A stretch of DNA of 64,000 nt from Sulfurimonas paralvinellae (GTDB lineage: Bacteria > Campylobacterota > Campylobacteria > Campylobacterales > Sulfurimonadaceae), in assembly GCF_014905135.1 (NCBI RefSeq), contig NZ_CP041406.1:124001-188000 (forward strand), given 5' to 3'. The position numbers and the translations under genes were made by a program. Position 1 is the stretch's first letter. Each line of letters opens with the position of its first letter. Of this stretch, positions 21,917 through 60,614 are shown in pieces. The notes beneath the pieces were generated by a model. That model searched no databases and was not told where the DNA came from. It was given only the letters and a program-made list of their open reading frames with translations.

Positions 21917-21970
21917 GGGTACATTAGATATTATGTCTAGCATTAATTGATAATTAAAGGGACGTATCTT

Positions 21971-22258
21971 ATGGATATTTCAACCACATCTAACGTTGTT
22001 ACAATTTCGGGGAACATTAAAACTGTCAGTGATTACCAAGCTATTAAAAGCACTCTAGATTCATTGATTGGAGCAAATAAGACCATTATCATCGATATTA
22101 AAGATTCTATCTCTATTACATCATCTGTTATAGGGTACCTTACAAAACTTGTACAAAAAGAGGGTATAGACCTTAGTATTAAAGTTGGTAACGATAGTCT
22201 GCTTGAACTATTTGACGATCTTAATCTCATCACACTTTTCAAAGTTAAAAAGGCATAA
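21971..22258 (+). CDS. STAS-domain protein (anti-sigma factor antagonist type)
   Basis: 95 residues; the ATG at 21971 has AAAGGGA upstream, and I rejected a TTG at 21947. A single STAS domain: VVTISGNIKTVSDYQAIKST, then TIIIDIKDSISITSSVIGYL, where Ser51/Ser52 occupy the position of the phosphoserine of SpoIIAA-type antagonists. The C-terminus LLELFDDLNLITLFKV is also typical. It would be phosphorylated by a RsbW-type kinase and freed by a PP2C phosphatase, both of which appear fused two genes downstream. The chemoreceptor starts 3 bp after its stop. Confidence 0.85.
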   Translation: MDISTTSNVVTISGNIKTVSDYQAIKSTLDSLIGANKTIIIDIKDSISITSSVIGYLTKLVQKEGIDLSIKVGNDSLLELFDDLNLITLFKVKKA

Positions 22259-22261
22259 ATC

Positions 22262-24238
22262 GTGACTATTAAAAATAAACTCAAACTTATAACTGCCATT
22301 GTCGTCTCTTTCGCACTCATAATTATTGCATTGACGATAAACAGTGCAATGAATGAACGAGCAGTGATAACACAGGCAAAAGAGCTGAATGTGCTTTCAC
22401 AGAAACTTTCACTCCTGATACATGAAACACAAAAAGAGAGAGGGGCAAGTGCCGGTTTTCTTGGATCAAAAGGGAAAAAGTTTGGTGAGATTCTTAAAAA
22501 ACAACGAGTGCTTACAGATAAACGATATGAAGAGTTACAGCAATATGTAAAGAGTCTTGATCTAGAACACTACTCGTCTGAATTGCGTACGAATATCAAA
22601 GAAGTTATGGATGGGATGGGGAATATTGGAAAAATTCGTTCCCGTGTTGACAGTTTGACAATCCCGGTAAAAGAAGAAGTACAATACTATACGGGTGTCA
22701 ATAAAGACATCTTGGATGTGGTCTCCCTTACAGCAAAACTTGCAAATACTCCGGAACTTGTGAAAGCATTAAGTGCCTATACGAACTTTTTAAAATCAAA
22801 AGAGAGAGCGGGAATAGAGAGAGCTGTTATGAGTGCTACCTTTTCATCAGATAAATTCGGTAAGGGAATGTTTGCGAAATTCATCACATTAATGGCTGAG
22901 CAAAATGCTTATATGGATGCTTTTACAAGTATTGCACCGCACGAGTCTGTGAAACTGTATAAAGAGACAATGAACTCCCCAGTTGTTGCAGAAGTCAATA
23001 AAATGCGCTCAATTGCACTGGCAAAAGCAAGTGAAGGTGGTTTTGGCGTTGATGGTGTTGTCTGGTTTCAAACGATCACAAAGAAAATCAATCTACTGAA
23101 AAAAGTCGATGACAGCCTTGCAAAAGAGAACGATAAACTGTTAGCTGAAATTGAATCACAATATAAACAAGACACTCTTATCACTCTGCTTAGCTATAGT
23201 ATATTTGCTATTGCTGTATTTATTATCATCTTAATAATTGCAAGAGGTGTCAATAGAAGTGTTGATAGCTCACTTGAAAAAATAAGCTGTGTATCAAATG
23301 ATCTGGATCTTAGCTGTAATGTTGTCGTTGAAGGGGATGATGAGATATCTCAAATTTCACGAGCACTACACAAGATGATTATTGCCTTTAAAGAGAGTGT
23401 ATACAGCTCTCAGGATGTGGCAACAGCAACGACACGTGAGAGTAATCGTTTGAATGAAGTTGTTGATGCTTTAACTGAAAATTCCCAACAAGAAGAGAAG
23501 AAAATTACCGAAGCAAACGGCCTTATATCCGAAATTGGAGAGAAGCTTGACATTGTTGAAGAGTCAACTATTGTGGTTACTGAAGATCTCAACACAACAT
23601 TCAATGTTCTTGATAGTTTCATTGTAAAATTGGACTCTGTTGTTACTTCTATTGAAAATGGGAGTGAACAGCAACAAGAACTTGTGGATAAAGTTGCATC
23701 ACTTACAGAACAGGCGAAAAATATCAAAGATGTGCTTGCTATCATCTCTGACATTGCTGATCAGACAAATCTACTAGCACTCAATGCTGCCATTGAAGCG
23801 GCTCGTGCAGGAGAACATGGACGTGGTTTTGCCGTTGTAGCGGATGAGGTAAGAAAACTTGCTGAGCGTACACAAAAATCACTCTCAGAAATCAGTGCTA
23901 ATGTGAATCTCATTACACAAAATGTTGTTGAAATTTCTGAAGAGACAGACAGAACATCACAAAGCATGCATGCCATTGCCGGTTCTGCACAAGAGCTCAT
24001 TATCTCATCCAATGAAACAAAAGATAACCTAGTGAGAACAAAAGACAAATCAACAGATACGATGCATCAGAGTGTATTTATTGCAACGAAAACAAAGACA
24101 CTTATCTCTACTATGAATGAGATTGTCGCTGTTGCGATGAAAAACAGTGAACTTAGATCTACTGTGGAAACTGCAGTGGAAACATTAACGAGAGACGCTA
24201 AAAAACTACAATCAGAACTGAGCAAGTTTAAAATATAA
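22262..24238 (+). CDS. Methyl-accepting chemotaxis protein with periplasmic NIT (nitrate/nitrite-type) domain
   Basis: 658 residues with a GTG start. TM1 is about residues 9-27 and TM2 about 305-325. Between them is a NIT-like domain with the mark [18 protein letters not shown] and a later KERAGIERA segment. A HAMP-like linker follows, then the signalling domain with the tip [20 protein letters not shown] and [19 protein letters not shown] domains are known for nitrate or nitrite sensing, but the ligand here is unproven. No CheR-binding pentapeptide at the end. It lies between the STAS gene and a phosphatase/kinase gene whose start shares a base with its stop. Confidence 0.9.
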
Positions 24239-25500
24239 TGTCCAAAGAGAGACTTGAACAGCTAGAAAAAAGTGAGGCTTATGCCTCCTATCAATCAGAT
24301 TTGGCATTTGCAAAAGAGCTGAATATTCTGAGAAATGATTTTTATTATCAGATGATCGATTCGAATGCGGCTACTTTAGTCGATTTTTTGTATAAACCGT
24401 TGGATACGCTTAGTGGCGATGCTTACAGTGCTAGAAGAATTGATGAACATAGAACATTTTATCTTCTCGTTGATGGCATGGGCAAAGGCGTGTCGGCTTC
24501 TTTTACCGCGGTTATTATGACGACTTTTATCAATCATTTAGTTGATAAGATGATAGAGCATGACAGTTTTAGTTTAGATCTTATTGTTAAAGAATCTATG
24601 GAGTTTATCAAACCGATCCTGCTTGACGATGAAGTTTTGGCAATAGATTATATTTGTTTTGATAACTATTATGATGTTTTAGAGTATGCAAAGTTTGCCA
24701 TGCCTCCTTTTTTACTGCAGGATAAAGATGATAATATCATCAGGATAAAAGCTAACAACACTCCCCTAAGCAAGTGGCAGTCTAAATATGACATTGCAAG
24801 GCATAATGTTGCCAATATCGAAAAATTTCTCTTTTACAGTGACGGTATTGTCGAGAATACAACAGATTGTGAAGGCTTGCCTTATGCCGCTTTTATTGAA
24901 GATGATTTTAGAGAATCTTTTAGTAGAGAAGAGTTTAAAGAGAAATTCTTCAATAAGGTCAAGGAACAAGAGGATGACCTCACGCTTATCTTTATTAACA
25001 GTTTGGATATTCGTGAAGAGACACTTGTGGCAAAACACTCCTTTAAGACATCTTTAGCTGACGTTGATGCAGCTTCGCAGTGGTATGAAACACTTTGGGG
25101 GAATATTCAGACAGATAACTCTTCTGAGGCAGAGAAAGCAGGTGTAGTATTTACGGAACTCTATATGAATGCCTATGAACATGGAAATCTCGGCATCAGT
25201 GCGAAGGAAAAACATCAATATCTTGAAGACGATGTCTATTTTGAAAAACTGAATGAACTTGAGCAAATGAGTACAAAGAACATTATTGTGGAAGTCTATA
25301 TGCTGAAAGAATTTGCCAATGAGTATGTTGTTACAAAAATAAAAGATGAAGGCGATGGCTTCGATACTCAGATTCTCAGTCAGATCTTTCGAAATTCTCG
25401 AAAGTTTAATGGCCGCGGTGTCTTTATCTCACGCAAGAATTCTATGGGAATTTACTACAACTCCCAAGGAAATTGCGTACTTTTCTTCAATAAAATATAA
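24238..25500 (+). CDS. SpoIIE-type PP2C phosphatase fused to RsbW-like HATPase kinase
   Basis: 420 residues. The PP2C/SpoIIE part has LSGDAYSARRID (metal Asp61), LLVDGMGKGVSASF (Asp79), LFYSDGIVENT and EDDLTLIFI, so the acidic metal ligands look intact. From about residue 270 a GHKL ATPase domain follows, with the N box FTELYMNAYEHG, the G1 box IKDEGDGFD and GRGVFISR. Phosphatase and kinase of a partner switch are thus in one chain, as in HsbR/SypE-like regulators, but without a receiver domain. The likely substrate is the STAS protein two genes upstream. No sigma factor gene is nearby. Confidence 0.87.
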   Translation: MSKERLEQLEKSEAYASYQSDLAFAKELNILRNDFYYQMIDSNAATLVDFLYKPLDTLSGDAYSARRIDEHRTFYLLVDGMGKGVSASFTAVIMTTFINHLVDKMIEHDSFSLDLIVKESMEFIKPILLDDEVLAIDYICFDNYYDVLEYAKFAMPPFLLQDKDDNIIRIKANNTPLSKWQSKYDIARHNVANIEKFLFYSDGIVENTTDCEGLPYAAFIEDDFRESFSREEFKEKFFNKVKEQEDDLTLIFINSLDIREETLVAKHSFKTSLADVDAASQWYETLWGNIQTDNSSEAEKAGVVFTELYMNAYEHGNLGISAKEKHQYLEDDVYFEKLNELEQMSTKNIIVEVYMLKEFANEYVVTKIKDEGDGFDTQILSQIFRNSRKFNGRGVFISRKNSMGIYYNSQGNCVLFFNKI

Positions 25501-30038: not shown

Positions 30039-32798
30039 TTATCTGTGCGTATATAAAAACTCATAGCGTAAAAAAACTTCTAAAATACTCCCGCCGATAC
30101 CACTGACAGAGTCTGTATACTCTGTCCCGATAACGAGATGGTCTTGTGAGTATACTTTTCCACCATAACCGGCACTAAAGCCAAATGTCATATCATTTAT
30201 TTCACTGTTATAATAAAGTAAGCCTTCAAAATAAGGTCTCCAAACTCTTGTATAGATTTCACTGTTTTGCATACCATAGGAAAAATTGGCACCAAGATTG
30301 TAAAAATCTCTCGGGAGCACTTTATAGGTTCCATCTTGAAGTTTGTCTATGACACCTTTGCTTCCTTCATTTTCATTATATATACCGCCGTCGCTGAAAA
30401 TACCTACATGAAGATCAGGGTAGCCGTTTCTGATTTGATAACCGAGGTTTGCAGTGAAATAGTTTCCATCTCCAATAGCTATGTTGTCTTGTGAACTATA
30501 TTTGTTCTTATCATATCGAAACTCTAAAGATGTGGAGTTAAGAATATGATAGACAAACCCGAGGGAGAGCATATCTTTTTTACCACCGAGAAGCAGCTGC
30601 GTCGATTCATCTGATGTGATATTTTTTGCTATTTCAGCTTTAAGCGTAAAATATTTATGGAGTATATACTCCCCATAAAGAGAAAAACGATAGTAGCTAT
30701 CCATACTGTCGGCATAACCGCCTTCTAGTTCTACTTTCCCTCTGTTGAAGAGTTTTCTCACGCCAAAATCTACGCCGAGAGAGCTATTTGGCGTATAAAG
30801 CAGCACTGTGTTGTCAAGTGAGGAGTTTTTATAGTATTCAATATGACTCAGTAGATAGAGACCGTCATTGATGTAGGTATCATTTTTTATCTTGATATAT
30901 TTTCTCAGCAGAGGGTCACGATTGTAGTATGAAAGTTTGGAGTCAAAAAGATCTGAGCGTTTTTTCGTTAGATTGAGCCACGAAATATAGGCACTCTGAT
31001 TGTAATGGTTCGTGTTGAGAGAATTGTATGTCAGTGACTGGGCAAGGGCAGTTTGACCGTCATTATCCGCTGCATATGAGGCATCGTCAATTGGCAGTGT
31101 TTTAAGATATGCAAAGAGAAGGTCTTCAATGGTTGTGTGATTTTGCTGCATTAGCGCATTTGAGAGTTCCAGCCAAAGTTCGCGCTTGTCGGTTTGCAGA
31201 TAGATCGTGTGTGCGAGTTCATCAGCATTGTTTTGTACTGCCCAACCGTATCGAAGGTCATCATAGTGTGTCTGCGTGAGATATTTTTTACCAGATGCGA
31301 GCTCTTTTTCAAAGCTGTCTGCCTGTGCAGTATACATACGTACACGCAGGTAATCATACTGGTATTTATCCGTTTTAAGAACTACCGGATTGTTTTTTGC
31401 CTGATGGGCCAAAATTGTCTGAATTTCTCGGAGTTCATGTGCAACAGCCGGTTTTTTGAACTGAGCCCTGTAGAGTTCTAGAAGCATAAATTTAAATTCA
31501 AGACTCTTGGTTGCAGGCGCTTGTGCTTTTTGCAGGGCATCTATGTAAAAGGCTGCTTGGTCAATATCATGCAGAGCATAATAGAGAGAGGCGACAGAAA
31601 GGTAGAGAGCCGATGGAAGGTTTTTCTCCTCTGCAAGTTTTTGGAGTGTCTCTTTCGCATCGGCATAAAAACCGGCTTTTAAAAAGAAATCGATTGCCGT
31701 GAATTGTATCTGAAGATTGTGCTTGTCAAGTTGTAGTGCTTTTTGCAGAGCAAAATGAGTTTGGTCTTTTTTATTGTAATGCATAGCGAGCTGCGCTTTA
31801 ATAAGCCAATAGTTAGCTTCATTTGTGATGGCTGCGTGCTCTTTGTCAATCTTGTTTGTAATTGCGGCTATTGTATCATACTGATGCAGCTTCATAGCAT
31901 TGTTTGCAAAAGTATAGAAGAGATAGCTGCGATGATATTTTTCATATGCCGCTAAAGCAGTTTCAGAGGCAAGTGTTGTATTTGTATCTTTTGCAACATA
32001 GATAACACGCTCATAGTCGACAAGACGACCATCGTTATGTTCTATAAGAGCATAGGAATTTTTTGCGGCGTATTGATATTTTTGGATATACCAGCCAAGA
32101 TCGCTGCGTGAGATAAAGAGTTGTTTGTCATATTGCTGTGCAGTTGTTTTGTTTAAGGCAGCAAATGCCTGCTGCATATTACGTTTAAGGTAATAATAGT
32201 AGGAAATCAGCGTAATATTGTTATGTGTATAAAGAGAATTTTCTTCAATAAGATCGACAACTTTTTTTGCTTTATCAAGCTCTCCCATGTTTATATAGAG
32301 TTGTAACTCTTTTGTTAGAAAGTAACTTTCGTGAGTGCGTTTGTAAAGTTTTTGAAGCACTTCTGCCGCTTTTTCAGGCTCGCCGGTCTGAGCATAGATA
32401 TATATCATCAGTTCTACATTTTTTTTTGTAGGCTTTTTGAGTGCCTTGTCGGTTATAAGGTCTTTGATGGCATCATATTGGTACGCACTCAGTCCATAGT
32501 CAATAATCTCCTGTGCAAGCTTTTGGCTGTGATGCTTACGGTAAAGGAAGTCAAGATATTTCATCGCCTCTTGACCCCTGCCGCTCCATCTGCAGATATC
32601 CGCCATTTTTTGGTTCCAATAAAGAGAATGGGGATGTCGTTGATAACCTATTTTTGCCGTTTTGTAAGCATTGTCAAGATCATTGGAATATACAAAAGAT
32701 TGCAGCATCAACTGTATCTCTGTATCACTCAAGCGAATGGTTGTTTGTGCTTTGAGTGAAAAAACAAGCAGCAGTGCCAATAAACATGTACGAATCAT
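30039..32798 (-). CDS. pelB: PelB C-terminal part: TPR repeats plus outer-membrane beta-barrel
   Basis: 919 residues. Signal peptide about 1-17 (MIRTCLLALLLVFSLKA). Many TPR-type helical repeats run to about residue 600, then a beta-rich region with alternating aromatic strands ends in ILEVFLRYEFLYTHR. This equals the periplasmic scaffold and export pore of PelB, the outer-membrane porin of the Pel polysaccharide. In Pseudomonas PelB is one chain of about 1190 residues with an N-terminal membrane anchor; here the anchor part is a separate gene directly upstream, with a 4-bp ATGA overlap. Two TGCGTGAG copies on the opposite strand. Confidence 0.82.
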   Translation of the reverse strand: MIRTCLLALLLVFSLKAQTTIRLSDTEIQLMLQSFVYSNDLDNAYKTAKIGYQRHPHSLYWNQKMADICRWSGRGQEAMKYLDFLYRKHHSQKLAQEIIDYGLSAYQYDAIKDLITDKALKKPTKKNVELMIYIYAQTGEPEKAAEVLQKLYKRTHESYFLTKELQLYINMGELDKAKKVVDLIEENSLYTHNNITLISYYYYLKRNMQQAFAALNKTTAQQYDKQLFISRSDLGWYIQKYQYAAKNSYALIEHNDGRLVDYERVIYVAKDTNTTLASETALAAYEKYHRSYLFYTFANNAMKLHQYDTIAAITNKIDKEHAAITNEANYWLIKAQLAMHYNKKDQTHFALQKALQLDKHNLQIQFTAIDFFLKAGFYADAKETLQKLAEEKNLPSALYLSVASLYYALHDIDQAAFYIDALQKAQAPATKSLEFKFMLLELYRAQFKKPAVAHELREIQTILAHQAKNNPVVLKTDKYQYDYLRVRMYTAQADSFEKELASGKKYLTQTHYDDLRYGWAVQNNADELAHTIYLQTDKRELWLELSNALMQQNHTTIEDLLFAYLKTLPIDDASYAADNDGQTALAQSLTYNSLNTNHYNQSAYISWLNLTKKRSDLFDSKLSYYNRDPLLRKYIKIKNDTYINDGLYLLSHIEYYKNSSLDNTVLLYTPNSSLGVDFGVRKLFNRGKVELEGGYADSMDSYYRFSLYGEYILHKYFTLKAEIAKNITSDESTQLLLGGKKDMLSLGFVYHILNSTSLEFRYDKNKYSSQDNIAIGDGNYFTANLGYQIRNGYPDLHVGIFSDGGIYNENEGSKGVIDKLQDGTYKVLPRDFYNLGANFSYGMQNSEIYTRVWRPYFEGLLYYNSEINDMTFGFSAGYGGKVYSQDHLVIGTEYTDSVSGIGGSILEVFLRYEFLYTHR

Positions 32799-33853
32799 TG
32801 CATGACCTTTAAAATCTTTCTTGAAAGTCTTTTCGCTTTTTGGACTTCATTAGCTGATAAATAGAGTTTCAAGAGCAGCAGCCTTGAACTTTTGTCTTTT
32901 ATAAAATAATCTTCATACTTGCTTCCTAATTTTACAGCATCTTTGAGCAAATTACCTGAAACAAGTGTTTTTATCGCTTTTGTCCATAACTTTTTTCGTT
33001 TTTTATAAGAGCTTGTCCTATAAAAAAGTGTCATGTAATAATCGGCAGCTTTTTTATACTGTTTGTATGAGAGATAATAATCAATAAGTTTCTTTTGCCA
33101 AAAAGTTGAACTTTGTGCGGCATGCAAAAGATATGCTTCCATCTTTTTATAACTTGAGAGCTGTGTGAGCAGGAAATAGTGCTCGTTATTCCATCGTTTT
33201 ATATGTTTTTTATCCACCTGCGTGAGCAGCTGCACATAGTTGAGTGCTTCATCATATCTTTTTAATTTTGTGGCAAGATAGAGTGCATCACTGAGAAGTT
33301 TTATATCTTTTGGTTTTTTCTGCAGCATCTCTCGGACAAGTTGATACTGTGCCGGTTGGCTGCGCAGGAACATTGCTTCTTTGTAGAGCATAGGCAGATC
33401 TTTTTGCTCATAAAAGTGTTTGTCTAAAATAAAGAGAAATGTCTTTTCAAGTTTTTTTCGCAGTTTTTGCATCTTGTGTGTTTCATGTTTGTTTTCTAAG
33501 AAAAAGTAGTTTTGCTTCAGCAGCTCATAGCTTAAAAGATAAGCTTGTTTTTGTACTTCTATATGGTTTGATTTTTTTAGAAGTTCAAGGAGGCTTAAAG
33601 CAAGATCACGATTTTGGCTTTTGATGCTCTTTTGTGCCAGAGTAAGGATGAGTTTCTCATTTTTAGGGTCGTTTCTCAGCATATTTTTGAGGTAAAGTAC
33701 GCTGAGGTCATAGTTCGATTTTTCTTTTAGGATCTGGTCCATAATCAACTCTTTTGGATAGAGCACAAAAAGGATCAAAGCAAAGGTGATAAACCCGATG
33801 ATAATTTCTTTGTAGGTGGCTACATAGACTTTTTCGTTATCTGCAAATCGCAT
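32795..33853 (-). CDS. PelB N-terminal part: membrane-anchored TPR protein
   Basis: 352 residues. One membrane segment at about 17-35 (EIIIGFITFALILFVLYP), then helical TPR-like repeats (NYDLSVLYLKNMLRNDPKNE, LYLATKLKRYDEALNYVQLL, and others). Together with the next gene it makes up the length and plan of a one-chain PelB. It overlaps the pelA end by 17 bp and the barrel gene by 4 bp. It could instead be an extra Pel-linked TPR scaffold; a structure comparison is needed to decide. Confidence 0.72.
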   Translation of the reverse strand: MRFADNEKVYVATYKEIIIGFITFALILFVLYPKELIMDQILKEKSNYDLSVLYLKNMLRNDPKNEKLILTLAQKSIKSQNRDLALSLLELLKKSNHIEVQKQAYLLSYELLKQNYFFLENKHETHKMQKLRKKLEKTFLFILDKHFYEQKDLPMLYKEAMFLRSQPAQYQLVREMLQKKPKDIKLLSDALYLATKLKRYDEALNYVQLLTQVDKKHIKRWNNEHYFLLTQLSSYKKMEAYLLHAAQSSTFWQKKLIDYYLSYKQYKKAADYYMTLFYRTSSYKKRKKLWTKAIKTLVSGNLLKDAVKLGSKYEDYFIKDKSSRLLLLKLYLSANEVQKAKRLSRKILKVMQ

Positions 33854-36599
33854 CTATGGTCACTTTCTTATGATGTTTGTAGTTAAAAGAGATGACGTTA
33901 TTCTTTTGAACTGTTTTTTTATAGCCTGTTGTTAGTTTATAATGACACCTTTGAGGGATAAAAAGCTGTAGTTTTACCGGAAGATGTGATTCAAGAATAA
34001 GATGCAGTTTTTTGTCTGTTTGTTTGAAGTCCTTTATTCTGCCATTGGCACTGACAAGATAGGGAATGGTTTGATATTCTCTCGCAGACGCTTCTTTCAG
34101 TAAGAGCTCTGTTTGTGTACCTGCATGAACATAAGTATGGTTTTCAAAATGGTTGTAACCGGCTATATTTTTTGAATTTGTCAGATTGACAGCGGCATCT
34201 TTTTTTTCAATACGAACTGTCTTGAGATCCTTGAATCCTGAGAGTAGCGTCTCCCCATTTTCCTGTGCTAGAGAAACAGTATAGTAGTCCATTGCTTTTG
34301 GAATGTACTCTGAAGTGAAGATAGGATTTGTATCTTGTTTTATTACCCAGTCATAGACATATTTCAAAGCATTGTAAGAGGCTCTTTTTGATGCGGAGTA
34401 GTAGTGATAGTAGACATCTATCGGCTTGAATCTTCGTGGAGAATTTGTCAGTTTAAAGGTCTGTATAGTATTTTTAAATCCCCAGTATGGACCCTTCCAG
34501 TCATTTGTGTAGACATTTTCATCCTGCGCACCTGTATAGATCTGATAGTATTCGCCTCTCTCTATGCCGTACGGCGCAATGTATGAAAGCCAGGGATGAC
34601 TGTTCATAATGTAAGTGTCACCTCCGTTCATGTTGAGAATATGGTGTTCATAGACATAGCTGATTGCATTTTGCTGCGGCATGCAGTTTCCGCTCCAAAA
34701 AAGCATATGTGCTTTTGGCAGTTTGTTTTTTGGGTAATATTTTTCATTGATCTCTTGGAGCATGCCGCTTATCTCATAAGCCAGAGAGAATTTGTAGCCT
34801 TTTGGTTTGAGTCTGTATTTTGGTGCCAAATCACCGTTTTTGAGTTCTTGCCAAAAGAATGGATGAGAAAAAGTGTGTGTTGCTCCTTCAATATTTGGCA
34901 GTTTATATATATTTTTTACAATTTTTTGGAGCTGCGGTGATATTTTTGGGTAAAGCCCGTTAGGATCCACTTCTGCACCTACGATTGAAACTGAGATGGG
35001 AACATGGTACTTTTTAAGAAAGTCGCTTAAAATCACCTCACCTGAAAATAGTTTTGGATTCCATTCTACACGGTTCATGATTGCATCGCCGTCTATATGA
35101 CTGAAGAAAATTCTTTTACCGTTTTGGGTTGTGGTGTCAGGAACAGGTATCTTTTTGAGTCGAAAAGCTTTTTGAAAAAACTCAAAAGGGTTGATTGTCC
35201 AGATATTGTCATCATCAATGGTTGTCATAAAACTGTTTTCCAAAGCAAACCCGCCCCATGGCATGAGTGCGGCAAGCGTTGCTGTATGTCCGGCACTGTC
35301 TTTGATGCTGTAGAGTGCTTTTCCTGAAGATATACTGATAAAACTACCTGAATAAAAGAGCGGTGGATCCATTTCGTATCCCATCATTTTATCTTTCATG
35401 AGTATGCTGTTTATGTTGTTTGATGGCTGTGCGAAGCTTTTGCTTTTTATACCGAAATTATTTAACAGATTGGTGTCTTCCAAACCAAAATTACCTGCAA
35501 AGACAATCTTTATACCTGCATCTTTTACCTGCGTGAGCCAACTTACTAATTTTTGACTGTCTGTATAACTTTTCGGAAGCCATACAATGACGCCTGCATA
35601 CTGCTGCATATTTTCAAGTTTTGGCAACGGTTGGTTGATATCATAGAGTTTTTGAATATAACCCAGATACTCAAGAGGCAGTGCTCCATAAAGGTGTGCT
35701 CCGGTCTCCATAAGATAGGTATTGCTTGTATCGACTAAGGTTAGGATCTCACGTTTGAGGGCATTTTTGGAAGATTTCCCATAGGTACTCAAGTCTTGTG
35801 TTGTAACATAGGGAATAAAACCTTTTTTCTGGAGATCGTTGACAAGCTTGTCGGCTTTTTGCGTCTCAAGCTGCTCAAAAGGAAGATAATCGACGGCAAT
35901 GATATCGAGCTTGTATTTTTGTACCTTTGCAAGTTCTTTATTCAGCCATTCTCTGCTACTGTCATTGACATCATAATAACTTGCTTTTTGTCCTTGCACA
36001 CCATTAAAATAAGACTCAAAAAGAACAGCTGTGACATCATTATGAACAGTATCAATGATTTCAAAACCTCTGTTTATGATGAGCTTTGCGTGAGGATAGC
36101 GCTTATGAAACGTCTTGATGATATGAATAAGCGATTCTTTGCTTCTTTCTTTTTGTTCGGGTGTTTTGGCAACAAACTCGTAAGAGTCCAAAGTATCAAA
36201 AAAGAAGTTTTTAAAACCGCGTTTTATCTGCGGCTCTATCATTTTGGAAAAGAGAAATTTTTGGTAATCTGGATTTGTCAGATCTAAAACATCGCTTTTC
36301 CAGGCTTTGTTTGTTCCGATAATCCAGCTTTTATTGATATCTTTATACTCGTCAATATCTTTGTCAATCTCACCAATGCTTACGTAAGCATACATTTTGT
36401 CCTTATAAACATCAAACCCGTGTGTATAGACGTTTGTGTTGGATGGCTGCACAATTATGTAGTCATGAATACCGACCATGGGGTAGGAGATGTTGTCTCC
36501 GTAGTAGAGAATGGCACTCTTATCACTGAGTCCGGCAAAAAGAGTTGTAACTGTGAACAGCATAAGCATTAGAAGTTTACTGCAGCATAAATGTTTCAT
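33837..36599 (-). CDS. pelA: PelA: glycoside hydrolase / polysaccharide deacetylase of Pel export
   Basis: 920 residues with a signal peptide (about 1-22). The N-terminal TIM-barrel hydrolase shows FFFDTLDSY (Asp135) and VLFESYFNG (Glu195), in line with the catalytic pair of PelA hydrolase domains. A flavodoxin/reductase-like middle part follows. The deacetylase has metal ligands in FFSHIDGDA (Asp503/505) and THTFSHPFFW (His575, His579). It should trim and de-N-acetylate Pel in the periplasm. Length is close to the 948 of Pseudomonas PelA. It overlaps pelG by 23 bp. Confidence 0.9.
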   Translation of the reverse strand: MKHLCCSKLLMLMLFTVTTLFAGLSDKSAILYYGDNISYPMVGIHDYIIVQPSNTNVYTHGFDVYKDKMYAYVSIGEIDKDIDEYKDINKSWIIGTNKAWKSDVLDLTNPDYQKFLFSKMIEPQIKRGFKNFFFDTLDSYEFVAKTPEQKERSKESLIHIIKTFHKRYPHAKLIINRGFEIIDTVHNDVTAVLFESYFNGVQGQKASYYDVNDSSREWLNKELAKVQKYKLDIIAVDYLPFEQLETQKADKLVNDLQKKGFIPYVTTQDLSTYGKSSKNALKREILTLVDTSNTYLMETGAHLYGALPLEYLGYIQKLYDINQPLPKLENMQQYAGVIVWLPKSYTDSQKLVSWLTQVKDAGIKIVFAGNFGLEDTNLLNNFGIKSKSFAQPSNNINSILMKDKMMGYEMDPPLFYSGSFISISSGKALYSIKDSAGHTATLAALMPWGGFALENSFMTTIDDDNIWTINPFEFFQKAFRLKKIPVPDTTTQNGKRIFFSHIDGDAIMNRVEWNPKLFSGEVILSDFLKKYHVPISVSIVGAEVDPNGLYPKISPQLQKIVKNIYKLPNIEGATHTFSHPFFWQELKNGDLAPKYRLKPKGYKFSLAYEISGMLQEINEKYYPKNKLPKAHMLFWSGNCMPQQNAISYVYEHHILNMNGGDTYIMNSHPWLSYIAPYGIERGEYYQIYTGAQDENVYTNDWKGPYWGFKNTIQTFKLTNSPRRFKPIDVYYHYYSASKRASYNALKYVYDWVIKQDTNPIFTSEYIPKAMDYYTVSLAQENGETLLSGFKDLKTVRIEKKDAAVNLTNSKNIAGYNHFENHTYVHAGTQTELLLKEASAREYQTIPYLVSANGRIKDFKQTDKKLHLILESHLPVKLQLFIPQRCHYKLTTGYKKTVQKNNVISFNYKHHKKVTIDAICR

Positions 36600-37950
36600 A
36601 GTTTAACCTTTCCATTTGATTACGAAGTACAAGGATACTCGCCGTAAAAACGATAAGCAGTGAAACCGCATAACCGTATCCATACATTGCCGGTCCTATG
36701 TCTATAGAGAGTAGGGTAAGCAGAGCATTGAGAATAAAAAAAGCGATACTCAGCCACATGGCAACTTTTTTACGGTCGAGATAGTAGAGTATGGCAAGGA
36801 CTGACATAAAAGCCAGCTGCAGCATCGCACCGATTGTTAGAATATAAAAAAGTCCGAGATAGAGCTGTGGAATGTTGAGTGCTGCAAAGATCTGTGGGGC
36901 CGTGAGAAAGAGCATAATATCAACAATCCCCTGAATAATAATAATCTCATGCATTGCGTGACGAATGATATTGACCATTTCATCTCTGTAGATTCGTATG
37001 AGCTTCAATGATCCTCCGTTTCTGACTGCATCGTAATAGAGTTCATACTTTTCAGCAAAATCGGCCTCTAAACGAAAGAAAAATATAGCCATACCCGGGA
37101 GAATGGAGAGATAAGCCAAAAATATCGGCATGTCATAGACTATAGATGCATGCAGTCTGCCTAAAACTGCATAACCTGTTGCAGGATTGTACCAAAAGAT
37201 TATTTTGTCAATCCAGGCGCCGAGATTATAAAAAAGTCCTGCAAAGGCTAAAGACCAGTAAAAATTCTTAGCCAGAAAGAAGTCGACCTTTAAAAATATG
37301 GTCGCGTTGTAACTTTTTATGATCAGTGTCATGAGGGCAACGAGCAGCAGGGCGTTACCTATAAAAAAGATATAGATGAGCTTTTCAATACTGTCACCAA
37401 AAAAGATAGAAGTGATGACAATAAGTGTGTAGGATATAAAATAGGACCAGACGACACCTTTATAGTACTTGAGACTTGCGGCCAGGATACTTGCTATCCA
37501 AACAGCACAAAGAACAAGAAAAGTGGCTATTGTTCCCATGATAAATACAAGGCTCTCTCCCTCAAACATCCAGAGATAAAATGGAACGATAAAAGGCAGG
37601 CCGAGTATCCATGCCAAGAAGATCGCACCGAAAAATGAGGGGAGAATTTCATCTTCTTTGTGCTTAAAAACTAGATCGGCGATATAGCGGGTAAAGGGAA
37701 GTTGAATAATTCCCGTGATAATCAAACTTGACGCCAGAGCGATAGCATAGGTGATAACGACCTGAAAACGGTAAACATCACTATTTGGACCGTAATTTGC
37801 AATCGAAACGAATCCTACAAGTAAAATGGCAATGATGGAGATGACCCACGGTCCTGAGCTGAGAATTGCCGAGTAGCCGTATACTTTTGCAAGGGAGAGA
37901 AGTCGGTCCTCTTTGAGAATCTTTCGTAGCTCGAAGCCTATGCCTGCCAT
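36577..37950 (-). CDS. pelG: PelG: Pel polysaccharide membrane transporter (Wzx-like)
   Basis: 457 residues with about 12 membrane segments. The start MAGIGFELRKILKEDRLLSL and the following LSSGPWVISI are characteristic of PelG. Family knowledge places it in the inner membrane with PelD, PelE and PelF as the polymerisation and export complex. It overlaps pelF by 13 bp upstream and pelA downstream. Confidence 0.93.
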   Translation of the reverse strand: MAGIGFELRKILKEDRLLSLAKVYGYSAILSSGPWVISIIAILLVGFVSIANYGPNSDVYRFQVVITYAIALASSLIITGIIQLPFTRYIADLVFKHKEDEILPSFFGAIFLAWILGLPFIVPFYLWMFEGESLVFIMGTIATFLVLCAVWIASILAASLKYYKGVVWSYFISYTLIVITSIFFGDSIEKLIYIFFIGNALLLVALMTLIIKSYNATIFLKVDFFLAKNFYWSLAFAGLFYNLGAWIDKIIFWYNPATGYAVLGRLHASIVYDMPIFLAYLSILPGMAIFFFRLEADFAEKYELYYDAVRNGGSLKLIRIYRDEMVNIIRHAMHEIIIIQGIVDIMLFLTAPQIFAALNIPQLYLGLFYILTIGAMLQLAFMSVLAILYYLDRKKVAMWLSIAFFILNALLTLLSIDIGPAMYGYGYAVSLLIVFTASILVLRNQMERLNYETFMLQ

Positions 37951-39629
37951 GATACTTTGCCTCTTTTTACTTTTATTTTTGGATACGGAAGTTTGTTCGG
38001 TGCATAGTATGCAAAAACTTTTTTCTTGAGTTCATCATAGGTCAGCGGAAGCGCTTCATTATAGATTGCTCGGTAATCGTTTAAAAACATCTCCTCTTTA
38101 TAATATTTTTGAACTCGGGTGAGTGCATTTTTTTGTGCCTGTTCCCACATACCATTGTGAAAATTTAAAAATTTTACATACTCTTGTGCCAGTGCTTCAG
38201 GATTTGCAATGCTTGTAAGTGCACCTGCAAGGCCGATATGTTTGTCATCTTCATTGAGACCGCCTTCAATAAGATCGCGGCAGCTTCCCACATCAGTTGC
38301 AACACAAGGTACACCTGCTGCAAAACCTTCTAAAATAACCAGAGGCATACCTTCACTGATAGAAGTGAGTGTCTGCAGTGCCGATTTTGGAAGAATCTCT
38401 TTAATGTTCTGATGGCCGAAGAATTTGATTTTATCAGGGTCTTTTTCAAGTTCTTCCAATGATTTCGTTGCTTTATTGTTTGTAAAAGTTTGAAGATTAA
38501 ATTTGAGATCAAGAGAGATAGCCATCTGTTGGCATTCGAGAACATATTCGGCATCTTCATCGACAGCACCTACTATCCATCCTTCAATATCCGGAATGTG
38601 CTGTGATGCAATTTTGATGGCACGTATGAATGTTTTAATGTCTTTTATGGGAACAACTCGTCCAATAAGCGTGACAATAGGCCGTGGGGGATCCTGACGC
38701 AGTTTTATTGTCTGCATCAATCCATCGACATCGACACCGTTTGGTATGATCTCACATCGCTCTTCTGGTGCACCAAGGGCTATCTGTATCTTTTGGGCAC
38801 CTCTGTAGAGTGAAAAGATATGGTTAGCTCGGTGGTAACAAAAAAGACCGATCTTGTCAAAAAACTCTACCCACATTTTTTTGATATAGTTGTACTCTTC
38901 AGGCTGCTGCAGGAGCGTGGGTTTCTTATACTCTATCCAGTCGGCTGAAAGCATATCTATCTTTCTCTCACGTGTATAAATTCCATGTTCTGTCAGTATA
39001 AAGGGACGTTGTGTTGTATATGACGAGAGTGTACCGAGAAAACCGGCATATCCTGTAGAGGGTGAATGGTAGATTTTTGATTTTGGAAGATTTTTGACAA
39101 TCTTTGCAAGTATCCAGATTGGTCTGTGAATATTTCTGACCGTCCAGAAATAGTCAATAAAAGGAATGTCGGGAGCGTTCTTCATTGCAAGTTCATTGAT
39201 GAAATCCCAAGACTCCTGTGAATATAAAAAATCTTCAAAGGTAACATCTTGGAGATAAAAATCTATATTCTGCAGCATCTTTGGCATCTGACCTCTTTTT
39301 GTCGTGAAGGAGGTATGTAGTTTTCTGATAGCGCTAAATCCTTGCGCATTGCCTTTTATATTGCTTGGAGTTGGTGTTTCATCTTGGTTGTCAAAGAGAT
39401 AGTGAACTTCGAGATGTTTGAGGTTTGGCGGGAACTCATAACAGACTTCCATCTTTTTGCCATTAATATAGGGTGTCGCTCCAATGAAGCAGACGCCAAA
39501 AGTAAATTCAGGAAGTCCTTTCATGAGCTGCAGTATCCAACTTGAGACGCCTCCTTTGATATACGGATAGGTTCCTTCAGAAAAGAGCATAATGTCAACT
39601 TGGGAACTTTTTGGGAAATTGCTATTCAT
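37938..39629 (-). CDS. pelF: PelF: glycosyltransferase (GT4) that polymerises Pel
   Basis: 563 residues. VDIMLFSEGTYPYIKGGVSSW near the start and RVVPIKDIKTFIRAIKIA, then SISEGMPLVILEGFAAGVPCVATDVGSC (the GT4 donor-site EGxP and following region), fit PelF. The open frame extends 19 codons upstream, but ATG 39629 follows GGGAGAG by 6 bp and overlaps pelE by 8 bp. It uses UDP-linked amino sugars in the cytosol. Slightly longer than Pseudomonas PelF (507). Confidence 0.92.
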   Translation of the reverse strand: MNSNFPKSSQVDIMLFSEGTYPYIKGGVSSWILQLMKGLPEFTFGVCFIGATPYINGKKMEVCYEFPPNLKHLEVHYLFDNQDETPTPSNIKGNAQGFSAIRKLHTSFTTKRGQMPKMLQNIDFYLQDVTFEDFLYSQESWDFINELAMKNAPDIPFIDYFWTVRNIHRPIWILAKIVKNLPKSKIYHSPSTGYAGFLGTLSSYTTQRPFILTEHGIYTRERKIDMLSADWIEYKKPTLLQQPEEYNYIKKMWVEFFDKIGLFCYHRANHIFSLYRGAQKIQIALGAPEERCEIIPNGVDVDGLMQTIKLRQDPPRPIVTLIGRVVPIKDIKTFIRAIKIASQHIPDIEGWIVGAVDEDAEYVLECQQMAISLDLKFNLQTFTNNKATKSLEELEKDPDKIKFFGHQNIKEILPKSALQTLTSISEGMPLVILEGFAAGVPCVATDVGSCRDLIEGGLNEDDKHIGLAGALTSIANPEALAQEYVKFLNFHNGMWEQAQKNALTRVQKYYKEEMFLNDYRAIYNEALPLTYDELKKKVFAYYAPNKLPYPKIKVKRGKVSWQA

Positions 39630-40770
39630 AACTGCTCTCCCACTGTTTGATGAGAGGATAGAGTTTTGGATTATAGGCAAGGTCATGCGAGTGGTTTAAA
39701 ATGGACTTTACTATAGAGTATCGTTTGGTTATAAAATACACCTCTGCAAGATAAGGAAGAATAGCCGTTGACTTTTCATCTATCAAAGATTCGGCAAGGG
39801 TAAAATACTCCTGTGCTTTTTCATAATTTTGTTTAAGGGTAAAGATTCTTCCTTTTAATGTATAGATACTTGAACAGGTGAAATAGAGATCTTCAAGAGT
39901 TCGGTTGAATGATGGAGATTGCTTTTTCTCATGAAACTCTTCTGTTAGCTGATTTAGCTCTTGCATATAAAATTCTTGGGCGAGATTAAGATACAGAAGT
40001 GCTGAATTTAAGAAGTTTTTTTTCAAACTTTCATGTGAGAGTTCTGTGTAGACCATTTCCCAGTATAAAAAAGCAAGTTCTTTGGATGCAAAAGCAACTT
40101 TCTTTTCATCTCTTGCTTCTCCTTTTGTTGATTCTTTTCGAATAACATCGAGATATTTATTGATACGGTCATTGATGTTCTTCTCTGTTTTGTTGAGAAT
40201 GGCATAGCCAAAAAGGCGGATCTCGTCATCATCATTGGTAAGTGTCTGTTTAATAATACTCAGGCTGATTGGTGAAGGATTATTTGCCAAAATAGAGAGA
40301 GCTTTTATTTTTTTTGATTTTGGAATATAGCTGTTTTCAATGAGATTGATCATTGAACCCTCTCCAAAGGTTCGCTCTATCTTCAAAAAAGAGGTTTCAA
40401 ATTCATCAAGATTGAGCATATTTGTCTGTACAGCTTTGGCCTGATATTTTACATGCACCATATACCAAAAGAGCCACAGCGTGAGAAAATAACCGGCAAA
40501 GGGAATAGCCAGATTAAAACTGACAACAAAGAGAAAAATACTTAGAGGATTGTTCTTGTGCAGTGATGCAAAGAAAAGAAATTTAAAAAAAGCAGATCTG
40601 TCTTTAAGAGCTTCAAGTCTATATCTGTCTTTGCTGCACTCTTTTGGAAAACGTATGAGTGCATAGCGTGAGATGAAAAGAGCCAACATAAGGGTAATGA
40701 ATATGTGAATAGAAAAAAGAAGATAAAAATGATGGGTATAAAAAGTAAATAGTTTATCCATGGTAATCAT
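39622..40770 (-). CDS. pelE: PelE-like membrane/TPR protein
   Basis: 382 residues. Hydrophobic segments at about 15-35 and 77-105, then a soluble helical part with repeats (SILANNPSPISLSIIKQTLT and a TPR-like LKQNYEKAQEYFTLAESL). Pseudomonas PelE has two membrane helices and TPRs and sits between pelD and pelF, as here. Sequence of PelE is poorly conserved, so the call leans on position. It overlaps pelD by 17 bp; M4 is an alternative start. Confidence 0.75.
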   Translation of the reverse strand: MITMDKLFTFYTHHFYLLFSIHIFITLMLALFISRYALIRFPKECSKDRYRLEALKDRSAFFKFLFFASLHKNNPLSIFLFVVSFNLAIPFAGYFLTLWLFWYMVHVKYQAKAVQTNMLNLDEFETSFLKIERTFGEGSMINLIENSYIPKSKKIKALSILANNPSPISLSIIKQTLTNDDDEIRLFGYAILNKTEKNINDRINKYLDVIRKESTKGEARDEKKVAFASKELAFLYWEMVYTELSHESLKKNFLNSALLYLNLAQEFYMQELNQLTEEFHEKKQSPSFNRTLEDLYFTCSSIYTLKGRIFTLKQNYEKAQEYFTLAESLIDEKSTAILPYLAEVYFITKRYSIVKSILNHSHDLAYNPKLYPLIKQWESSYE

Positions 40771-42091
40771 CTGTTATGTATTGATATATCAGCTTCTCTT
40801 CTTTGATACTAAAGGTCATATACTCGAACTTTTTATCTTTTTCATGCTTAAGATTGTACAGCAGCCTATTGAGAAAGCCTAAAGCTACGGCCTGATCGTT
40901 AAGCGGGAAAAGTATGACAAGATAATAGATCTCTTTGTCCTTTGTTTGTGTAACGATGTCAAGTGAACGTAAAAGATTTTGGGTCTTTTCAAAAACCCTT
41001 CGCGTCTGCAGTTCGTTATCTATTTTTAGAATTAGGAGTGTCGAGTCAACTCTGTATTGTTTTTGCAGATGTTGCAGTCGGTTGTATTCATATAAAAAAG
41101 ATCTTTCAGAAAAAATGGCAGCTATTTTTTCTGATTGCTGCATAATGTTTTCTTTATAAATTTCAATGGAAAGGTACTCAAGTAAAATAGCGATTGAGAT
41201 GAGATTCTCTTTGTTGAATGCCATAAAAGGCATCTTCTCGATTACCAAAAGTGATAGCACTTCATTATTGTAAACGGTAGGGATTGCAGCGAGGTATCTT
41301 GACTCTTGTGTTGTTTCAAGTGTCGGATTATGAGCGGCATCACTGACAAAGACAGGTTTTTTTCTGCTGAGAGCCTGCGTGATAATGTAGTCATCAAAGA
41401 GAGCTGCTTCATCGGTATCTTGTTCATAGGATTTTGTATAACTTATCAAAGAGTTTTCAGGTGCAAGCGTCTTTTGAAGTTGATGATCGATTTTATGGAT
41501 AATAAAACCACTTTGCAGGCTAAAAGATTTTTCAAGAAGAACCAAAAAATCCAGATACTGCATGTTGTTTTTATCTCTATTGAGAATAATTGTCTCAATC
41601 GCGGAGCGAATACTCATGGGTTTGAGTACATAGTTTTTCTCAAGTTGGTCATGGGATATTTTTAAACTGTAAAAGGCTTTGGAAAGCTCGTCGAGCTTCG
41701 ATGCTTTATAGTCATCATCAATTTGTAACTCATGTATTCTTTTTGTCCAGTAGTAGTGAAACTGGCTAAAGATAAGCACCATCATGAGATAGACCAAAAA
41801 AGAGATATAAGGAAATTTGTCATAAAACTGCCACATGCTCAATGAGATTAAAGTCATGGCAATAAACGCACTCTCAAAACCATGAAAAAGTGTCAATATA
41901 GATAAAAGAATCAAAAGATAGGGGATCTTTTCCTGCGTGAGACAGATATCGTGAGGATTTACGATATAGCCGATGATTAAAAAGGCTGTAATAATGGTAA
42001 AACTCTCCAAATAAGAGTATTGACGAATCTTTCTTATGAAATATTCTAGTCGTGAGAGTTTTTTAATTCTTCTTGTAATACTTCTTTTCAT
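40754..42091 (-). CDS. pelD: PelD: c-di-GMP receptor of the Pel system
   Basis: 445 residues. About four membrane helices (30-115), a coiled linker, a GAF domain (about 165-310) and a degenerate GGDEF domain without the GGDEF motif. In the last, RSLD at residues 375-378 matches the RxxD c-di-GMP site of Pseudomonas PelD, and Arg409 is 34 residues further, near the spacing of its second Arg. Binding of c-di-GMP to PelD switches on Pel synthesis. Arg162 in the linker may also contribute. Preceded by pelC with an 18-bp gap. Confidence 0.88.
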   Translation of the reverse strand: MKRSITRRIKKLSRLEYFIRKIRQYSYLESFTIITAFLIIGYIVNPHDICLTQEKIPYLLILLSILTLFHGFESAFIAMTLISLSMWQFYDKFPYISFLVYLMMVLIFSQFHYYWTKRIHELQIDDDYKASKLDELSKAFYSLKISHDQLEKNYVLKPMSIRSAIETIILNRDKNNMQYLDFLVLLEKSFSLQSGFIIHKIDHQLQKTLAPENSLISYTKSYEQDTDEAALFDDYIITQALSRKKPVFVSDAAHNPTLETTQESRYLAAIPTVYNNEVLSLLVIEKMPFMAFNKENLISIAILLEYLSIEIYKENIMQQSEKIAAIFSERSFLYEYNRLQHLQKQYRVDSTLLILKIDNELQTRRVFEKTQNLLRSLDIVTQTKDKEIYYLVILFPLNDQAVALGFLNRLLYNLKHEKDKKFEYMTFSIKEEKLIYQYITDDYHG

Positions 42092-58568: not shown

Positions 58569-60614
58569 GTGCGTAATGCTCTGTTTCGATTTTATAACTC
58601 GCTTGGTATTAGTAATAAATTAAACTTCATAGGAATAGCTTCGAGTGTATTAGCTGGGAGCATAGTTTTGATTTCTCTGTTTGTCTTTGCTTATGTAAGC
58701 GAGAGAAATAGTGTCGAGCATGAATCAAAGACATTTGCTAAAATATTAGCGGATAATATCGCATCACCTATCATAGCGAAAGATGCTCTACGTATTTCAG
58801 ATATCCTGGCTTCAGTTGAGTATAATGAGAAAATAACCCAAACGTTTGCACTTGATACATCCTGGAATGTACTTGGTACTTTTAGTAAGGGGAATAACTT
58901 TTCACAACAGCGTAAAATGATTCCAATCATCAGAGAAAATCAAAACTTATGGAAAGATGGATATTTTTACTCTGTGGTGCCTATTCTTAAGGATGATAAG
59001 CAGATTGGATATCTTGTTGTTGTAGCATCATTAAGTGAATTTTATAAAAAGATGTTGGAGTATGGTCTTTTTATAATATTTATCATATTTTTAGCTTCAG
59101 TGATCACGGGAAAATTTAGAAAATTGCTCTCAACATCTATTTTACAGCCAATTGCCCAATTAGATTCAATTACAACGAAGATTTTGCAAACAAAAGATCT
59201 GAATCTTGAAATACCAGTATACAATCAAGATGAGATTGGGGAACTTGCAAAAAATTTCAAACATATGATAGATGAGTTGAACAGTTATCATAATGAACTC
59301 AATGCGCAAAAAGATACACTTGCCTATCAGGCTAATTATGACTCATTGACAAAATTGCCAAACAGGGCTCTTTTTAATGACAGACTGCATCAAACTATAT
59401 ACACTTCCCAGAGAAATAATAAAAAATTTGCACTGCTTTTTATAGATTTGGATGAGTTCAAAAATGTAAATGATACATTTGGACATGAATATGGAGATAG
59501 ATTACTTCAAAAAGTCGCTGTCCGTCTCAAAAGTATACTAAGGCAAACCGATACATTGGCAAGACTTGGCGGTGATGAATTTGTCGTCATTATGAATGAT
59601 TTGACAGATTATCATGCTGCTTCTGTGTTAGCACAAAAGATGTTGGATATTTTAAAAATTCCTGTTGAGATTGAACATGAAGAGATATTTATAAGTTGCA
59701 GTATCGGTATCAGTCTCTATCCAAAAGATGCGACTGAAGCTCAGGAACTTATTAAGCATGCAGATATCGCTATGTATAGAGCAAAACATAATGGACGTAA
59801 TGCCTATGAATTTTATGTTGAGAGTATGACACAGGAGATATTGGCACGGCTTGATATGCAAAGTAAACTTCGTATAGCATTAGAAGATAGAGACTTTGTT
59901 GTTCATTATCAGCCACAATACAATATGAAAAATGATACGCTCATAGGGTTTGAAGCACTTGTCAGATGGCAGGATAAAGAGAAAGGTTTGATCTTTCCGG
60001 GAGATTTCATTCCTTATGCCGAAGAGTTTGGTATGGTTGTGGGTATAAATAGACAAGTTATGGAGATGGCAATGATACAGGCTGCAAAATGGCATCAGGC
60101 AGGTGTCTATTTTAGAAGAATTTCTGTTAACATATCCATTGAACAGGTGGAAGATGACAACTTTGTGATCTTTGTCAAAAAACTTTTGTTAAAGACTGAA
60201 TGCCGGGCAGAATGGTTTATATTTGAATTGGTAGAGAGTCAGGTCATGAAAAATACTGAGACTGCAATTATTGTTTTACAGGATTTGAGTGACTTGGGAA
60301 TAGAGATAGCTGTTGATGATTTTGGAACAGGCTACTCATCTTTGGCCTATTTAAAACATCTTCCTATCAATGAGCTGAAAATTGATCGTTCGTTTATCAT
60401 GGATACTCCTCAAAACAGTGATGATGCTTCAATTGTGAAAGCAATCATAGCAGTTGGAAAAAATCTAAATCTTGACTTGATTGCCGAGGGTGTAGAAACA
60501 GAAGAACAAAAGGAATTCTTACTCTCTAGCGGCTGTGAAAGAGTACAAGGGTATCTGTATGGACGTCCTATGAGCAGTGATGATATAGATAAAAAGATAT
60601 TTAATTTGGTTTAA
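58569..60614 (+). CDS. Membrane sensor with HAMP, GGDEF and EAL domains (c-di-GMP turnover)
   Basis: 681 residues, GTG start after AGGA. TM1 about 20-42, periplasmic sensor 43-163, TM2 164-182, HAMP to about 245. The GGDEF domain has intact GGDEF at 334-338 and the RxxD inhibitory site RQTD at 325-328, five residues before it. The EAL domain starts with FEALVRW (EAL 462-464) and keeps DDFGTGYSSLAYL. Both activities look possible. Its last 14 bp overlap the convergent small gene. Its signal may come from the periplasmic FecR or TPR proteins made just upstream; inference. Confidence 0.93.
   Translation: MRNALFRFYNSLGISNKLNFIGIASSVLAGSIVLISLFVFAYVSERNSVEHESKTFAKILADNIASPIIAKDALRISDILASVEYNEKITQTFALDTSWNVLGTFSKGNNFSQQRKMIPIIRENQNLWKDGYFYSVVPILKDDKQIGYLVVVASLSEFYKKMLEYGLFIIFIIFLASVITGKFRKLLSTSILQPIAQLDSITTKILQTKDLNLEIPVYNQDEIGELAKNFKHMIDELNSYHNELNAQKDTLAYQANYDSLTKLPNRALFNDRLHQTIYTSQRNNKKFALLFIDLDEFKNVNDTFGHEYGDRLLQKVAVRLKSILRQTDTLARLGGDEFVVIMNDLTDYHAASVLAQKMLDILKIPVEIEHEEIFISCSIGISLYPKDATEAQELIKHADIAMYRAKHNGRNAYEFYVESMTQEILARLDMQSKLRIALEDRDFVVHYQPQYNMKNDTLIGFEALVRWQDKEKGLIFPGDFIPYAEEFGMVVGINRQVMEMAMIQAAKWHQAGVYFRRISVNISIEQVEDDNFVIFVKKLLLKTECRAEWFIFELVESQVMKNTETAIIVLQDLSDLGIEIAVDDFGTGYSSLAYLKHLPINELKIDRSFIMDTPQNSDDASIVKAIIAVGKNLNLDLIAEGVETEEQKEFLLSSGCERVQGYLYGRPMSSDDIDKKIFNLV

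Follow-up and report, generated by a model that had tools for sequence, protein, structure and literature searches.

The DNA analysed here is a window of 64,000 nucleotides from Sulfurimonas paralvinellae (RefSeq assembly GCF_014905135.1, contig NZ_CP041406.1, positions 124,001 to 188,000), in which three head-to-tail genes on the plus strand form a compact cassette: a small STAS-fold protein, a chemoreceptor of the methyl-accepting chemotaxis protein (MCP) type with a periplasmic NIT sensor domain, and a single protein that joins a PP2C-type (SpoIIE) phosphatase to an RsbW-type kinase. The STAS stop codon ends at 22258 and, after a 3-base gap, the chemoreceptor begins with GTG at 22262; the TAA stop of the chemoreceptor (24236–24238) and the ATG of the phosphatase/kinase at 24238 have one A in common. 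The host genome is complete-looking (2.08 Mb), with the cassette at 146–149.5 kb between housekeeping genes (SIS/CBS, pseudouridine synthase, a RarA/MgsA-type ATPase, malic enzyme, a menaquinone-biosynthesis family and MoaD/MoaE/MoeA), and no sigma factor or anti-sigma gene was found in the neighbourhood examined. The original prediction, made from the letters of the DNA, had given this gene order, the 3-bp gap, the one-base overlap and the lack of a sigma factor; coordinates, domain matches and flanking genes bear it out on each. We propose that the three genes form a self-sufficient partner switch that is linked to a chemoreceptor and whose phospho-STAS output acts on a non-sigma target, a reading to which we give an even chance.

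In many related species the three genes have remained neighbours, and this conservation suggests that the receptor works with the switch. Relatives of the third protein occur in 84 of the 399 genomes of the order and in 35 of its 87 genera, and both a STAS and an MCP gene adjoin it in 62 of the 84 distinct loci at ≥40% identity (an MCP gene in 70, a STAS gene in 70), contig ends explaining part of the missing neighbours. The full triad is spread over several Campylobacterota families and has different neighbours outside the genus; besides STAS–MCP–SpoIIE, the order may be MCP–STAS–SpoIIE (our loci L041, L115, L121 and L135) or MCP–SpoIIE–STAS (L063, L064, L066, L067, L068 and L166), and such variation argues against mere inertia as the cause of adjacency. 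The best 80 loci of a genome-wide scan all belong to Campylobacterota or to similar-looking unclassified metagenome-assembled genomes. Lack of conserved synteny had been named beforehand as the refuting result; the triad instead proved widely conserved.

Co-occurrence points the same way. Among 60 congeneric genomes, 33 carry both the receptor (its subfamily taken at ≥55% identity) and the phosphatase/kinase, six the phosphatase/kinase alone, two the receptor alone and 19 neither; the corresponding Fisher value, 1.3e-8, ignores relatedness and is descriptive only. The receptor and phosphatase/kinase genes are adjacent in 31 of the 35 receptor-bearing genomes, and the next-best NIT proteins reach at most 47% identity and mostly lie within longer, different open frames. 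With the neighbouring RarA gene removed, evolutionary distances among the three proteins correlate at 0.51–0.69 (0.69 for STAS and MCP, 0.59 for SpoIIE and MCP). Together with the synteny, these counts uphold the earlier claim that the chemoreceptor belongs to the cassette.

Table 1. Features of the cassette, and the receptor that takes the place of its chemoreceptor in other genomes
Feature	Position	Strand	Basis or remark
STAS-fold protein, 95 aa, probable phosphoacceptor Ser51 (motif I-T-S51-S-V-I-G)	21971..22258	+	AlphaFold2 model, RsbV profile, conservation
Chemoreceptor (MCP), 658 aa, GTG start, two transmembrane stretches, canonical hairpin tip	22262..24238	+	Pfam, hydropathy
Periplasmic NIT sensor domain, residues 52–289	22415..23128	+	PF08376, 223 bits, 7e-66
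MCP signalling domain core match, residues 465–620	23654..24121	+	PF00015 MCPsignal, 105 bits, 6e-30
Bifunctional PP2C-type (SpoIIE) phosphatase and RsbW-type serine kinase, 420 aa, without receiver	24238..25500	+	Pfam, AlphaFold2 model, residues
SpoIIE/PP2C phosphatase domain, residues 69–253	24442..24996	+	PF07228, 63 bits, 5.9e-17
HATPase_c_2 (RsbW/SpoIIAB-type) kinase domain, residues 273–415	25054..25482	+	PF13581, 23.2 bits (cut-off 27.4)
Non-NIT chemoreceptor, 530 aa	L052 7651-9243; L056 6968-8560; also L154, L157		Replaces NIT receptor

The first protein of the cassette is a strongly diverged STAS protein, an identity that rests on a structural model and a profile match to RsbV. Relatives have the same length as the protein begun at ATG 21971, which supports this start; at 21947, a TTG is the mechanical start of the open reading frame. 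The Pfam STAS model scores 18 bits on the window protein, under its cut-off, and finds none of the 31 other orthologues, so that just one of 32 family members is recognised, and weakly; structure and profile methods were used because of this failure. The AlphaFold2 model is confident (pLDDT, the predicted local distance difference test, 93), and SpoIIAA, RsbV and RsfB lead its PDB matches. The family profile matches RsbV, and Ser51 aligns with the serine of the RsbV D-S-T-G motif, the phosphoserine position; coronavirus spike coiled coils that also matched the profile were discarded as low-complexity chance matches. The usual motif D-S-[ST]-G is here replaced by x-S-[STA]-x-x-G. Since the family is nearly invisible to Pfam, switches of this kind are probably under-annotated in Campylobacterota.

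The third protein is predicted to carry both opposing activities, judging by its invariant catalytic motifs. Its model (pLDDT 89.5) matches best the RsbU–RsbW part of mycobacterial Rv1364c and then many PP2C phosphatases, and its kinase domain has PDB 9qih (Leptospira LvrC, also called SenB) as best sequence-profile match (3.5e-18). The PP2C residues D61, D79, D202, D246 and D247, the kinase N-box residues E307 and N311 and the G-box residues D370, G372 and G394 are invariant among 31 family members of 33–76% identity. The original prediction had held the phosphatase aspartates, the kinase boxes and Ser51/52 to be intact: the aspartates and boxes stand, as does Ser51, which is invariant in all 32 STAS orthologues, and Ser52 is not invariant.

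In the chemoreceptor, two hydrophobic stretches (around residues 9–27 and 309–327) flank the NIT domain, a HAMP match stays at 12.6 bits against a Pfam cut-off of 25, and the hairpin-tip sequence is canonical and essentially invariant among relatives. Its C-terminal arm equals that of another receptor of the genome in length, with 154 residues after LALNA in both L087 and L080; this arm length is compatible with the 40H type, and 40H receptors have been named as input of the F3 system in Campylobacterota (PMC9321776). Elsewhere in the same genome, a 380-aa protein (L086, C1:449389-449670) has an MCP hairpin tip followed by about 56 residues, most of the returning coiled-coil arm being missing.

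The NIT domain matches NasR (PDB 4akk, E=5e-13), a soluble antiterminator unlike the window receptor, and E186 and R187 align with NasR E175 and R176, named as nitrate-pocket residues (PMC7496416); some distant relatives have Lys in place of R187, and the pocket comparison covered these two residues. The host genome encodes NapA, and nitrate is therefore plausible as ligand. However, PA4520, which shares the NIT sensor family and is a chemoreceptor too, binds neither nitrate nor nitrite through this domain (PMC6381276), so that nitrate is only a guess, and the nitrate or nitrite signal that had been suggested for this receptor finds no support as stated. Many members of the genus have open frames, about 950 aa long, that carry two tandem NIT domains (e.g. 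G408:C1:1710007-1711539). In another genome, a second NIT receptor (G429:C71:6251-9209) neighbours a phosphatase (about 393 aa) with a match to the phosphatase part only, apparently lacking the kinase domain.

In our proposed scheme, the C-terminal RsbW-type domain would phosphorylate the STAS protein at Ser51 and the PP2C domain would dephosphorylate it; the STAS protein would be the output and, by analogy with HsbA, SypA and HmpV, would bind a non-sigma target in one phosphorylation state. The NIT chemoreceptor, in the sensor position, would most likely bias the balance between kinase and phosphatase upon periplasmic ligand, the signal presumably running from receptor to switch. How it might do so depends on the receiver domain (REC). 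Most relatives of the third protein are REC–PP2C–kinase proteins, with the phosphoacceptor Asp present in 53 of 59 RECs, and in these CheA could phosphorylate the receiver; the window protein and its clade lack the domain. The original prediction had not noticed this difference from the usual form, which changes the question of how the chemoreceptor could feed the third protein. Because the receiver is gone, the link in the window cassette would have to be a direct or array-mediated contact, possibly through a conserved N-terminal helix (residues 3–30 in the model).

A tree of 98 sequences has about 17 REC changes and 13 MCP changes; the two states are not associated over supported independent pairs, some states on the tree being blurred by contig ends and frameshifts. 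Since the changes are uncorrelated, the receptor is independent of the receiver. CheA-to-REC phosphotransfer was rejected as the sole link, as the window protein has no REC and the REC changes took place without receptor loss.

The strongest case for the receptor as the sensor of the switch comes from other occupants of the receptor slot. In two other lineages (L052/L154 and L056/L157), a chemoreceptor without a NIT match adjoins the pair of STAS and REC–PP2C–kinase genes, so that the MCP output is the part retained. A second cassette of the host genome, L078 (C1, ~790.4-796.2 kb), encodes a STAS protein of 99 aa, a FIST/PAS histidine kinase, a REC–PP2C protein without kinase domain and a REC–GGDEF–EAL protein, so that a sensor kinase fills the slot that the chemoreceptor holds in the window cassette. 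We put the odds that the chemoreceptor is the sensor of the partner switch at about even. The L078 cassette also ties a STAS switch to cyclic di-GMP turnover.

Several observations weigh against the proposed coupling. The phosphatase/kinase occurs without this receptor in the six congeneric genomes counted above, and about ten loci have STAS and phosphatase/kinase genes with no adjacent MCP gene; a switch can thus function without the receptor. Co-inherited neighbour genes give correlated trees without physical interaction, and loss of REC with retention of the receptor speaks against coupling in its simplest phosphotransfer form. The canonical tip would also suit a plain taxis receptor, and it is possible, if unlikely, that the genes share expression only: an ordinary taxis receptor, signalling through the single CheA, would be co-transcribed with an independent switch that is useful in the same condition. 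The ordinary arm length fits this explanation, as does the complement of Che proteins: the host genome encodes one CheA, one CheW and two CheV-like proteins, with CheA, CheW and one CheV at 455–459 kb, hundreds of kb from the cassette, and the four of 60 genomes that have no CheW-domain protein all lack the cassette (chance 0.008). However, shared expression does not readily account for an adjacency that persists in several families despite changed gene order and other neighbours, for a receptor subfamily rarely found away from the cassette, or for the substitution of another MCP type in the same operon. It is also conceivable, though we rather doubt it, that the main motility array drives the switch directly, with the receptor contacting the phosphatase/kinase or the STAS protein and no CheA-to-receiver phosphotransfer; if so, a second, CheY-independent chemoreceptor output would exist across Sulfurimonas-type bacteria.

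The arrow may instead be reversed: with its state fixed by the phosphatase/kinase, the STAS protein would bind the chemoreceptor or its array and tune it or turn it off, the receptor being the target of the switch. Such an arrangement needs no receiver and so fits the repeated loss of REC with the receptor retained; it would give the STAS protein, otherwise without a target in the cassette and with no sigma factor nearby, a partner; and no pair has distances more strongly correlated than STAS and MCP (in the partial correlation), although the correlations of a 95-aa protein are noisy. The STAS and phosphatase/kinase pair nevertheless exists without an adjacent MCP gene, and in L078 the slot is taken by a histidine kinase, and we regard the reverse arrow as a minority possibility. 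Less probable still is a classical RsbV/RsbW/RsbU sigma switch, whose partner would be either an unlinked sigma factor or FlgM, the anti-sigma factor that plays this part in Pseudomonas: FlgM is bound by HsbA, and the domain order of the window relatives is also that of the HsbR family (PMC5085249), but the neighbourhood has neither a sigma nor an anti-sigma gene, and no conserved sigma-28 or sigma-54 promoter was found upstream of the cassette. Membership of the flagellar regulon was rejected on the same promoter result, and spread by plasmids was rejected because a plasmid search gave no match at 1e-8.

Elsewhere in the window, a Pel polysaccharide set (PelB barrel, GH114 PelA-like protein, PelG, PelF and PelD) occupies 30039–42091 on the minus strand; a gene at 39622–40770 within it has no Pfam match and may, from its position, encode PelE. 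A functional tie between the cassette and these genes, 4.5 kb downstream, was rejected, since no pel gene lies in the flanks of any fetched relative. A HAMP–GGDEF–EAL protein with a CHASE8-like periplasmic sensor is encoded at 58569–60614.

Several known systems resemble parts of this cassette. HsbR–HsbA of Pseudomonas, which by way of FlgM and HsbD steers biofilm formation and motility, likewise combines a phosphoserine STAS protein with one phosphatase/kinase protein and has no dedicated sigma factor (PMC5085249). The likeness drawn in the original prediction holds in part: the PP2C–kinase order with a STAS partner is shared, and the full REC–PP2C–kinase order of HsbR is that of most Campylobacterota relatives, whereas the window protein lacks the receiver and a chemoreceptor stands in place of the HptB phosphorelay genes. 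No flgM, hsbD or HptB phosphorelay gene was seen at the locus, the rest of the genome not having been searched for them. SypE of Vibrio fischeri has its kinase first and its receiver in the middle, a domain order that differs from that of the window protein. SypE–SypA nevertheless offers a bifunctional kinase/phosphatase acting on a STAS serine (SypA Ser56) with a sigma-independent output (PMC8256260), without a chemoreceptor. HmpU–HmpW–HmpV of Nostoc punctiforme is a STAS-output partner switch for motility that works alongside a chemotaxis-like system (PMC6495340, PMC8256260); its phosphatase and kinase are encoded by separate genes, and no chemoreceptor is reported inside the switch.

The closest parallel is found in the F7 clusters of gamma- and beta-proteobacteria, where chemoreceptor, STAS protein and serine phosphatase form a three-gene unit that has moved and been lost together, as in the V. 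cholerae VCA1088 region and with P. aeruginosa McpA/PA0180 (PMC7184735). The layout of the window cassette had been called new, which is too strong given this published unit; apart from the F7 trio, literature searches gave no direct report of a chemoreceptor with a partner switch. The F7 array does not require the receptor of the F7 unit, which reportedly sits in the F6 array, and what this receptor does is a recognised puzzle (PMC7184735). Here a unit of this kind occurs by itself, in genomes that may encode only one CheA, and comes in natural versions with and without receiver and with NIT or other receptors, so that the role of the receptor could be tested against a simple background; if the coupling is true, chemoreceptors would not only set swimming direction but also act on the choice between the motile state and others. 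The two trios share adjacent chemoreceptor, STAS and serine phosphatase genes, a likeness of gene content; unlike the F7 trio, which lies within a cheA–cheW–cheR–cheD–cheB cluster, the window trio lies by itself, its receptor carries a NIT sensor, and its phosphatase shares one protein with a kinase. The cassette is thus a stand-alone, kinase-fused, NIT-sensing variant of an already known kind of chemoreceptor–STAS–phosphatase unit.

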